This document shows, one piece after another, positions 6,326 through 10,412 of a stretch of 64,000 bases of DNA (its first letter is position 1; the number at the start of each line of letters is the position of its first letter). The DNA lies in contig OX387608.1 of NCBI GenBank assembly GCA_947568835.1, positions 17,270,535-17,334,534 on the forward strand. Reading direction: 5' to 3'. Source of the DNA: Protonemura montana (taxonomy: Eukaryota; Arthropoda; Insecta; Plecoptera; Nemouridae). A model generated the notes under the pieces. That model did not search any database. It had not been told where the DNA came from and worked only from the letters and a program-made list of their open reading frames with translations. A program made the translations under genes and the position numbers.

Positions 6326-6510
6326 TAATATGGTAACAGCGCCAAAAAGTGGATTATTTGTTTGGGATCGAAAAAAAACCGGGAAAGAAAAACTGATTGA
6401 AAAATAAACGTCAAATCTTTAAGTTTCCTTTCTCAATATCCTCGCCTTCATTACAACAACCACGACTTCAATACATAATATGGTAATAATATGGTACCAT
6501 GACCCATACT

Positions 6511-6764
6511 ACCATGGTAATACCTTGCCCCATGATACCATGGTAATACCTTGCCCCATGGTACCATGGTAATACCTTGCCCCATGATACCATGGTAATA
6601 CCTTGCCCCATGGTACCATGGTAATACCTTGCCCCATGGTGCCATGGTAATACCTTGCCCCATGATACCATGGTAATACCTTGCCCCATGGTGCCATGGT
6701 AATACCTTGCCCCATGATACCATGGTAATACCTTGCCCCATACTACCATGGTAATACCCAGCCC
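6511..6764. repeat. 26-bp minisatellite (accatggtaataccttgcccc...)
   Basis: Nine full 26-bp units start at 6511, with a partial tenth at 6745. The unit contains the palindrome taccatggta. It ends about 60 bp before the Z3 acceptor. Confidence 0.93.
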
Positions 6765-6825: not shown

Positions 6826-7112
6826 ACGACCTTCACGTGCCCGACTTCTCGTTCGGCGTCCTTCAGTCGCGTACTTTGCGCACGCGCTTTGAGTGCCCGA
6901 AGTGCGCGCGCAGTTACAAGAACCGACGTCACTTGAATCGTCACGTGAGCTTCGAGTGCGGAATCGAGCCGCAGTTCGCATGCGTCGTGTGCAGTCGAAG
7001 ATATCGACAGAAGACGGACATGTTAAGACATTGTAGACAGAAACACGGCCTTGTGGGGTTGTCAGGGAGGGAGGGGCAGGAGGTGACCGTATTCACCAAG
7101 ATATCGCCATAA
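6826..7112 (+). CDS. lola: Z3: lola-type terminal zinc-finger exon with long tail
   Basis: Acceptor cttttcttgcag ends at 6825, phase 1, 94 residues, the longest finger exon here. The lead begins DLHVPDFSFG and lacks the YSRGR motif. Finger 1 is CPKC...H-x4-C (helix N,R,H,R). Finger 2 is CVVC...H-x4-H (helix Q,T,D,R). About 20 residues follow the HG end, finishing FTKISP. No clear AATAAA was found before the next acceptor. Confidence 0.92.
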
Positions 7113-7756
7113 AACGACCTTGGTTTCGCGGAACGACCTTGACAAATGACATTGGTTTTTAAATCGACCTTGGGTAATGACCTTGACAAAGTGGCCTTGA
7201 AGTGGTTTTCCCAAACGACCCTGAGAAAAGTTCAAAGCAAAATATACAAAAAATAATTTTAATTGGTTTAACTGCCGTCCGCGTGAGGCGCCACCTGTCT
7301 CAACGCAGCATTACGTTAACCATGCATTTTTTTTTCAGCTATAATTTAACCTAGCGAAACTTTTGTTTATGTTTAGCATTTGTCTTCGTTGGGCGAAAGG
7401 AAGTTTTGATGTTTTTTCATTGTGCGCAAGTTTTACTCGGGGAAAATGTAGCTGTCAAATCGAAATTAAATTTAGTGAAATATTTGCTTCTTGTGTTGTC
7501 TTTGTTTTCACCTGTCATTTCATGCCACTTGGATACATTTAGTCCAGAGTTGAAAATTAGCGCTGTGACTTGGATTCAATGTTTTTCCCTAATGTAAGTG
7601 TTCCTCTTAAGTTTGCATGTTATTCTTGAAGTGATTGTTACCAATGTTAATGCAATGTTAATGTTAAAGCAATGTTAATGCAAGTTACCAAAGTGATGAT
7701 AAACCTGGACTCTGGGATTATTTCTAAAATGCTGTTTTTCCCGTTGCTTGTTTCAG
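7113..7756. other. Intron between Z3 and the BEN exons
   Basis: AT-rich sequence with no finger motif. Short open frames at 7406-7597 have no recognisable content. A poly-T/cag acceptor near 7340 is followed by a stop within four codons in the array phase. Confidence 0.4.
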
Positions 7757-7839
7757 GTGTAATGGAGTCGACTCTGACATCTAAACCTCCCAGTGCTAGT
7801 GGATTCCTCCAATTGAAGTACCATCAAGGAGACCTTGGT
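7757..7839 (+). CDS. lola: BEN isoform, first specific exon
   Basis: The acceptor gcttgtttcag ends at 7756 and the exon starts with two bases of a split codon, the same phase 1 as every finger exon, so it can receive the shared lola donor. It encodes 27 residues from VMESTLTSKPP to YHQGDLG, a low-complexity link with no domain. The exon ends after GGT, before a textbook donor gtgagt (7840-7845), in phase 0, which matches the start of the next exon. Unlike most finger exons it is not terminal. Reading on through the donor would stop at 7881, giving a short finger-less end, so an unspliced form is an alternative. Confidence 0.75.
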
Positions 7840-8030
7840 GTGAGTTACCATCATAGACGTATGGGTTTTATAGTTTGTTGAGGTTAGAATTAATAAAGAA
7901 TGATTCGAGTTATCTGCGAGAAAAAGTCACCATCCTCGGTCGGTATTTTCCACAATAAAGTGGAATAAATTCGCTGGGGCTTTGACTTTCTAACTCGTTC
8001 CACGGGACGGTGTGTTCGTGTACTCCCCAG

Positions 8031-8262
8031 GTATGCGAGCTGGTGCCCAAGTCGGGGATCTATATCAACAAGGAGGCGCTGGAAATCATCAAAGTTGTGT
8101 CCTATTCTCACACGACGACAGCTGGCAATCTCCTTGACGCCCTCTTTCACCGGCAATACTTGATGGAATCCACGGTCTTCTCGGTTCAACGGTCACCCGC
8201 TGAACCGATCTTGTGTCTGACTGATACCCAGCTCTATGAAGCTGCTGTCGAAGCCATCTTAG
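8031..8262 (+). CDS. lola: BEN isoform, second exon: N-terminal part of a BEN domain
   Basis: The acceptor gtactccccag ends at 8030 and the reading frame starts in phase 0, as exon one requires. It encodes 77 residues. The BEN pattern is clear: CELVPKSGIYINKEALEII, then an alanine/leucine helix NLLDALFHRQYLMES, then LTDTQLYEAAVEAIL. This fits the BEN family core (a 'G-x-Y/W-I' strand-helix start, 'LL..LF....L' helix, 'L....L.A....' helix). BEN domains bind DNA or mediate protein contacts in chromatin factors such as BANP, NAC1, Insensitive and mod(mdg4) isoform C. The donor is gtacga at 8263, leaving one base (phase 1). Confidence 0.82.
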
Positions 8263-8946
8263 GTACGATCCGACCTACGTCATCAATACCTGCTTGCTGT
8301 TTTATTATTAACAACACTATAACCGTCTCAAAAATTGATGCCTAAACGCGGACTCGAACCCCGATCTCCACCTGTCGCGGGTGTTGCTCTAACCAATTGA
8401 GCTACTTGGACCCCGATCTCCACCTGTCGCGGGTGTTGCTCTAACCAATTGAGCTACTTGGACCCCGATCTCCACCTGTCGCGGGTGTTGCTCTAACCAA
8501 TTTAGCTACTTGGATACTGGCTTTTTGAGACGATTTTAGTGTATTTGATGAGAATGACGGATCTCCAACGAGTAGAACCAAGAGGCAATTGAGCAACACC
8601 CGCGACAGGTGGGGATCGGGGTCCAAGTAGCTCAATTGGTTAGAGCAACACCTGTGACAGGTGGAGATCGGGGTCCAAGTAGCTCAATTTGTTAGAGCAA
8701 CACCCGCGACAGGTGGAGATCGGGGTCCAAGTAGCTCAATTGGTTAGAGCAACACCCGCGACAGGTGGAGATCGGGGTCCAAGTAGCTCAATTGGTTAGA
8801 GCAACACCCGCGACTGGTGGAGATCAAGGTCCAAGTCCACATTTGGGCATCAATTTTTGAGACGGTTATAGTGTTGTTAATATTTAAAAAAAACCGCGCA
8901 TTGCAAGCGTTTGACACCTGTCAACAACTTCTTATCTTCGTTGCAG
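8263..8946. mobile_element. Intron of the BEN isoform holding a head-to-head pair of tRNA-derived SINEs
   Basis: A minus-strand SINE copy (about 8303-8590) meets a plus-strand copy (about 8590-8885). The outer ends taacaacactataaccgtct and agacggttatagtgttgtta are perfect inverted complements, so the intron can form a roughly 580-bp imperfect hairpin. Each half contains several 52-bp A-box units. Confidence 0.8.
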
Positions 8947-9137
8947 AGTTCAGTCACACGTTCGCCACCGCGAACCGTTGGACGACGATGACGTGTCACG
9001 TGGTCGAGAAGTGTCTTACCAAGAAGTTGGCAGTCATGGGCAGAAGACCTGCACCTCGAGGTGGTTGCCCGGGGCAACGTTTAACTGTTGACATACAACG
9101 CAGCGTCAACTGCATCAATGACAGCAACAAAGAATGA
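8947..9137 (+). CDS. lola: BEN isoform, terminal exon: C-terminal part of the BEN domain
   Basis: The acceptor ttcgttgcag ends at 8946. The two leading bases AG complete the G left by the previous exon to give Glu, so the join reads ...EAVEAIL-E-FSHTF.... Sixty-two residues follow before the stop. The segment RWTTMTCHVVEKCLTKKLA fits the last BEN helix (aliphatic positions followed by K-C). A basic tail MGRRPAPRGG and an unremarkable end follow. The three exons together give about 168 isoform-specific residues. Phase agreement at both junctions is the main support; transcript evidence is missing. Confidence 0.72.
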
Positions 9138-9629: not shown

Positions 9630-10090
9630 CTTTCAAGTGTCCCCGTTTGGGCATTAATTTCTGAGACGGTTATAATAATAAATACCCTGCGCATTGCAAG
9701 CGTTTGCAATTTAAATAAGATTTCTTCCTAATTTAAGCGAAATCACTACACGAATCATTCGAGTTAGCACCTGATTTAACGACCTTCAGTCAGTGAAGAG
9801 ATTCTATTGGTTATGGTTGAAGAAGTGAATCGACAAACCAACTGATTTATATGTATCTATGTGGCGTTCGGACCAACGGTCTTATGGCGTATTCTTGGAC
9901 AGTGTTAATAGAGATTGCACCGATATAATTACCATGTACGGAAGTTACAGTAAAATGTGGAATACAAGAAAATAACCATATTATTATTATTAGAAAACAC
10001 TGGAAACGTCTTAAAAATTGACGGTTACAGTGTTGATAATAATAAAAAGCCCCGCGCATTGCAAGCGTTTGGAATTTAAATAAGATTTCA
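9630..10090 (+). repeat. Two 3'-end fragments of the tRNA-derived SINE
   Basis: Pieces at about 9645-9720 and 9990-10090 contain the SINE tail (gagacggttataa, gcgcattgcaagcgtttg, aatttaaataagatttc) without the tRNA-like head. The second ends about 75 bp before the Z4 acceptor. Confidence 0.7.
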
Positions 10091-10167: not shown

Positions 10168-10412
10168 GTGCTCGCCGTCCTGCGCCTGCGCTGGACTACT
10201 CTCGAGGCAGGATGCTGGCCAAGCCGTACACCTGCTGCACCTGCGCAAAGAGCTACGTGCGACTGACGAGTCTGCGCAAACACGAGCGCTATGAATGTGC
10301 GCAGGCGCCGAAGTTTGCGTGTCCGCGCTGCGCACGTAGGTTCAAGCACAAGGCGCATGTGCAGAGACATTGCACCGCCGTGCACGGAATGAAATGCGTC
10401 AAGACTAGCTAG
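10168..10412 (+). CDS. lola: Z4: lola-type terminal zinc-finger exon
   Basis: Acceptor cctgttgcag ends at 10167, phase 1, 80 residues. The lead holds ALDYSRGRMLAKPYTC, a YSRGR-type lead. Finger 1 reads C-C-T-C (the spaced pair is C-x2-C), helix R,T,S,K, ending YEC. Finger 2 CPRC..., helix H,A,H,R. The tail is HGMKCVKTS. An ATG in frame at 10146 is intronic. Confidence 0.93.

Follow-up and report, generated by a model that had tools for sequence, protein, structure and literature searches.

A divergent BEN-like domain as a probable alternative 3′ end of lola in Protonemura montana

The closest described systems are two Drosophila BTB genes: mod(mdg4), with many alternative, trans-spliced 3′ ends of which one is predicted to encode a BEN domain (PMC3510454, PMC5094011 and PMC11426971, in the portions available), and lola, for which the accessible part of PMC11426971 gives C2H2 fingers as 17 of 20 ends and reports trans-splicing, as at mod(mdg4). 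Arrays of lola ends can be large, with more than 180 forms in Nasonia and 58 in Apis according to an excerpt of PMC5000498. BTB domains of the TTK group, LOLA among them, form hexamers (PMC11426971, same portion). BEN is described as a DNA-binding domain in the available section of PMC11472053, and DNA binding has been reported for Elba1 and Elba2 (PMC3510454); apart from Elba, the only fly proteins with a BEN domain that the accessible part of the latter paper lists are Mod(mdg4)C and Insensitive. A sequence-only reading of the locus described here knew of no BEN isoform of lola, and none was found in the excerpts of open-licence papers searched; as far as that search extends, a BEN end appears to be new for lola.

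Here we analyse a window of 64,000 nucleotides of the P. montana genome (contig C11, positions 17270535–17334534, plus strand; 258 Mb and 34 contigs were searched in all), which carries an array of lola-type finger exons. Three exons within it are, in our judgement, likely to provide lola with an alternative 3′ end that encodes BEN and would replace the usual C2H2 finger pair in a transcript joined to the distant common exons. We take the end to be real and probably functional. Coordinates without a contig name refer to the window.

Three exons with agreeing splice phases

All three exons lie on the plus strand. Exon 1 (7757–7839, 83 nt) has a phase-1 acceptor, TTGCTTGTTTCAG|GT, and a phase-0 donor, GGT|GTGAGT, and reads xVMESTLTSKPPSASGFLQLKYHQGDLG, x being the split codon. 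It is followed by intron 1 (7840–8030, 191 nt, GT–AG, donor GTGAGT from 7840) and exon 2 (8031–8262, 232 nt, phase 0 in and phase 1 out), which encodes the first segment of the BEN-like domain (VCELVPKSGIYINKEALEII...LLDALFHRQYLMES...LYEAAVEAIL). Intron 2 (8263–8946, 684 nt, donor GTACGA from 8263) leads to exon 3 (8947–9137, 191 nt, phase 1 in), encoding the C-terminal part (EFSHTFATANRWTTMTCHVVEKCLTKKL), a tail and the stop codon TGA at 9135–9137. The sequence-only reading of three phase-compatible exons was borne out in full: AG acceptors, GT donors and phases 1/0, 0/1 and 1 are all present, and the proposed 168-residue translation, 167 codons plus the split first codon, is open throughout.

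Most of intron 2 is filled by a foldback (inverted-repeat) element at 8300–8888, with arms at 8300–8514 and 8674–8888 (215 nt each, 94% complementary) that contain 52-nt tandem units, among them a tRNA-Ser-like unit at 8339–8411 on the minus strand. By eye, end sequences like those of the element recur near 9650 and 9998.

The three exons sit between finger exons of the array on the same strand. The preceding one (coding part 6826–7112) has a phase-1 acceptor at 6826, fingers at 6894–7046 and the stop codon TAA at 7110–7112; the following one (10168–10412) has a phase-1 acceptor at 10168, fingers at 10233–10385 and the stop codon TAG at 10410–10412. Directly before the preceding exon, at 6500–6760, a short unit (ccatggtaataccttgcccc...) is repeated in tandem. 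By pattern, 36 paired-finger exons were found in the window, and 66 when 200 kb upstream was added. The claim that all 39 finger exons share a phase-1 acceptor therefore needs trimming in number and in universality: the best-scoring acceptor is in phase 1 for 33 of the 36, and for 59 of the 66 in the larger region. The simple acceptor score may have erred in the other seven.

A BEN-like but divergent domain

The reading of the peptide as a BEN-like domain was supported by profile and paralogue evidence. Pfam is blind to it: no family, PF10523 included, matched the spliced peptide, exon 2 or a core piece at E ≤ 10. A BEN profile built from four seeds gave 4.6 bits, a score beaten by 2 of 2,000 shuffles and by one of 450 window frames. 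With seven seeds from solved structures (BANP, two domains of BEND3, NACC1, Insensitive, Elba1 and BEND6; we take 4ix7 to be Insensitive and 4x0g to be Elba1), the peptide scored 10.5 bits, which none of 5,000 residue shuffles reached; when each seed was left out in turn, 0, 0, 0, 0, 0, 1 and 3 of 5,000 shuffles attained the score of the peptide. True BEN domains, held out, scored 13 to 63 bits, which places the peptide at the distant edge of BEN. A profile with the two P. montana BEN exons L008 and L004 added and the peptide excluded gave 19.6 bits, where the highest-scoring of 5,000 shuffles reached 8.2, a result that is not independent because L008, described below, had been found with the window peptide.

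The peptide had one match among solved structures, by chance, and single-sequence structure prediction of exon 2 alone gave a low-confidence model (pLDDT 53, pTM 0.33). In a protein database that includes insect lola proteins, a search with only the BEN part gave no homologue from another species (E ≤ 1, 70 candidates), and one with X filler placed in front of it gave no protein match (E ≤ 10, 207 candidates). Judged by the seven-seed profile and by its paralogue L008, the domain is BEN-like but divergent.

Relatives in the same genome share intron phases

Across the genome at E ≤ 10 the peptide matches only its own exons and two exons elsewhere, L008 (C16:28.263 Mb, E = 0.026) and L009 (C11:0.912 Mb, E = 0.6), whose BEN exon reads VCELMPGSGVYV...VEAIL. 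In this first BEN exon the acceptor is in phase 0 and the donor in phase 1, and both fall where those of exon 2 do in the alignment; the next exon enters in phase 1 (read in L009, with the translation of L008 in agreement) and aligns with exon 3, as the corresponding exon of L008 does specifically. When its BEN part is joined, L008 matches the window peptide at 31% identity over 107 amino acids (45 bits), and, with the copy L009 set aside, the two are mutual best matches in the genome. The L008 exon reaches 22.0 bits against PF10523 (E = 1.9e-4), just below the cut-off of 23.2, and that of L009 12.5 bits (E = 0.17). The homology to BEN runs through intermediates with shared intron phases, and L008 is the decisive link for the BEN identity of the peptide.

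On its contig, the C16 BEN gene has its nearest BTB match 286 kb away, and a frame upstream of its BEN exons looks coiled-coil by eye. When two putative upstream exon frames of this gene were compared with the window and the 200 kb upstream of it, no match had an E-value below 0.39. The BEN exons of the array were probably duplicated from another BEN gene like that on C16, and would have been captured by the array from there.

The genome also holds Pfam-detectable BEN exons (L001–L004), to which the window peptide has no match at E ≤ 10; L002–L004 lie near a BTB. Two candidate BTB–BEN genes stand on contig C1, one on the plus strand (BTB at 6.411 Mb, BEN at 6.429 Mb) and one on the minus strand (BTB at 24.817 Mb, BEN at 24.811 and 24.808 Mb).

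A lola-type common region upstream

That the array belongs to lola, as first read from the window, is supported by a lola-type common region on the same strand, 0.69 Mb upstream. A BTB domain, by eye of the TTK kind, is encoded by two exons within C11:16589201–16607600, starting from 16589327 on the plus strand, and is diverged, with 53% and 69% identity to Drosophila lola in its two exons. The hub itself lies at C11:16590271–16590459 (plus), about 688 kb from the BEN exons; neither BTB nor hub was found in C11 17.07–17.27 Mb. The first common exon ends IQPKEEFLDDHDDSIENITLDDDDDDGMDDMDQSQQPGTSHMGEGSSSQ|G ('..IENITLDDDD..GEGSSSQ|G') with the donor CAAG|GTGAGT, and the second ends GYPPSWHNSEQSNDEIFMAAQQAVGGDGTQRE|G with the donor GAAG|GTAGGT, both in phase 1. 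Matching sequences, EDLTLDDDD...GEGSSQ and DEVFLAAQEAVGAHRDSQ, are present in lola proteins of beetles and of a stick insect.

Among the best 120 of 2,264 protein matches, 114 allowed this end of the common region to be recognised, and the next residue is G, D, E, V or A in 114 of 114. Each of these residues has a codon that starts with G, so the rule of a final G followed by a phase-1 exon holds both here and in other insects. Exon 1 obeys it (G|GT GTA ATG), its acceptor phase at 7757 being that of both common-exon donors.

Three copies of the hub sequence are present in the genome, each of them on C11 (2.542 Mb on the plus strand, 15.196 Mb on the minus strand and 16.590 Mb on the plus strand), and all three lola-type hubs come with BTB exons. 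The 150 finger matches that were scored, from 848 candidates, likewise all lie on this contig. One finger block, at 8.57–8.63 Mb, is far from every hub. Another, at C11:16738094–16910312 on the minus strand, lies between the hub at 16.590 Mb (plus) and the window block; no hub was found upstream of it on its own strand, and it points to either trans-splicing or an assembly inversion.

Exon 1 as a putative phase adapter

We propose that the common exons of lola (BTB and linker), which end in phase 1 with G, would be spliced to exon 1 in place of a finger exon, and that exon 1 would take phase 1 from the common exon (G|) and hand phase 0 to the BEN exons. The hub is about 688 kb away and the reverse finger block stands in between, so a very long intron or trans-splicing would be needed: we infer joining either in cis, across some 0.69 Mb, or by trans-splicing of the kind reported for Drosophila lola. 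The product would be a BTB–BEN protein with a length of, very roughly, 425–460 residues, whose BTB part would assemble with itself and with other lola isoforms and whose BEN part would have another DNA sequence or another chromatin partner as its target.

The splice signal of exon 1 fits this role. Its acceptor scores 12.2, against a median of 8.9 for the 66 finger exons, and among 2,000 dinucleotide shuffles of 7105–8030 an open exon with phase 1 in, phase 0 out and an acceptor score of at least 12 arose in five (in 78 with an acceptor score of at least 8). Together, the profile and exon 1 shuffle controls reject a chance open frame as the origin of the three exons. The end of exon 1, LKYHQGDLG, also resembles the YSRGRL/YHRGKL leader of neighbouring finger exons, which is found in 10 of the 66, with six of the ten lying within the window's first 27 kb; against a profile of the ten leaders, 124 of 20,000 shuffles score as high. 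Because the resemblance was spotted after looking, derivation of exon 1 from a finger-exon leader is a hint and no more.

Alternative explanations

The best-surviving alternative is that a small BEN gene in its own right lies nested within the lola array; it would have its promoter within 7113–7761, start at the in-frame ATG at 7762–7764 (plus strand) and encode a protein of 166 residues with little beyond BEN. The start codon has G at both −3 and +4, the nearest relative, on C16, is not near a BTB match, and no splice over 0.69 Mb would be necessary. Such a gene nevertheless leaves unexplained the acceptor of exon 1, which has the phase of the array and a score of 12.2 matched in few shuffles, and it would have to account for exons that sit between the finger exons of the array on the same strand, for two upstream frames of the C16 gene that were not found nearby and for the post hoc resemblance of exon 1 to a lola leader. 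We consider a nested gene unlikely, and an alternative lola end the better account of exon 1.

A decayed or unexpressed fragment, in which BEN exons were copied into the array and are no longer, or were never, used, is considerably less probable still. It would suit the divergence of the peptide (31% identity to its best relative, and invisible to Pfam), the foldback element within intron 2 and the lack of relatives from other species in the protein database searches at E ≤ 1 and E ≤ 10. All three exons are open, however, with all five splice sites present, and a neutral copy this diverged would be expected to hold stops. Third-position GC in exons 2 and 3 (0.64 and 0.61) falls within the range of the finger codons of the window (0.57–0.84), against a GC content of 0.37–0.42 in the introns and flanks; in exon 1 it is lower, at 0.41, a point against the reading of all three exons as a lola end. 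A dead fragment is unlikely because the frames are open and the GC3 of exons 2 and 3 lies in the finger-codon range.

A swap of terminal exons between lola and a BTB–BEN gene of the mod(mdg4) type, the origin suggested by the sequence-only reading, recalls the predicted BEN isoform Mod(mdg4)C of flies (PMC3510454, available part) and the two C1 loci at which BEN exons follow BTB exons on one strand at a distance of 5 to 18 kb. Compared with the BEN exons of these candidate genes, the peptide lends the idea no support and we judge it very improbable: it has no match to those exons at E ≤ 10, and the C16 gene, the closest relative of the peptide, lies 286 kb from the nearest BTB match.

Other ends of lola in insects

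A protein search with a predicted isoform yielded 2,264 matches among 8,000 scored candidates, and the best 120 of these were inspected. PF10523 was detected in none of the best 120, and BEN profiles matched none of the tails of at least 40 residues available for 113 of them, the whole protein being used if no end could be assigned to its common region. The best tail scores were 5.1 bits (E = 0.18) for P0068, with the profile that includes the window peptide, and 6.4 bits (E = 0.068) for P0001, with the other. P0001, the top match, was rejected as a BEN isoform; it is a double-BTB model.

Some of these gene models carry domains of other kinds. The Leptinotarsa lola model P0115 ends in a homeodomain (E = 1.4e-14) and the Coccinella model P0068 in DUF4806 (E = 5.9e-7), a domain that falls below the cut-off in P0069 and is assigned to P0070 by precomputed annotation. 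Ends other than fingers therefore recur in lola and are, as gene models, not unprecedented. The beetle models without finger ends are P0115, P0068, P0069, P0070, P0100 and P0037, and their ends include a weak phage-integrase-like match (E = 0.0026) and a weak Psq-like match (E = 0.043), both below the cut-off. The Cys-rich tails of P0024, P0036 and P0109 look to us like the zinc-binding C terminus of PiggyBac transposases, a likeness that Pfam did not confirm for P0024 and P0036.

We tentatively suggest that the lola 3′-exon array may act as an open docking platform, in which any domain that gains a phase-1 acceptor becomes linked to BTB, so that one hub would recurrently recruit unrelated DNA- or chromatin-binding domains through very long-range splicing or trans-splicing; we hold this general idea as possible, and with distinctly less confidence than the reading of the BEN exons themselves. 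If the BEN end is expressed, lola varies more than its fingers: behind a single BTB hub it can exchange one class of DNA-binding domain for another, as is predicted of mod(mdg4) with BEN in flies. The locus would also offer a dissectable case of a foreign domain fitted into a splice array, in which a short adapter exon shifts the reading phase. Alongside the beetle gene models that end in a homeodomain or DUF4806, it makes the question of whether lola arrays are recurrent domain traps a testable one.

Comparison with known systems

In its own genome, the BEN-like end resembles L008 (about C16:28.262 Mb) and its copy L009 in the intron phases and, at the identity given above, in the sequence of its BEN part; it differs from L008 in surroundings, the latter having a coiled-coil-looking frame upstream and no BTB match within the distance stated. 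Like isoform C of Drosophila mod(mdg4), it would be an alternative 3′ end of a BTB gene with a predicted BEN domain, but the host gene is another, and the BEN domain here is nearest, within its own genome, to that of a BEN gene without a BTB match nearby. With the known ends of lola it shares the common region and an exon array entered in phase 1, and it departs from them in encoding BEN where they encode mostly C2H2 fingers. Vertebrate NACC1, whose BEN domain is among those with solved structures, has BTB together with BEN, with the BEN domain as a fixed C terminus and not as one of many alternative ends.
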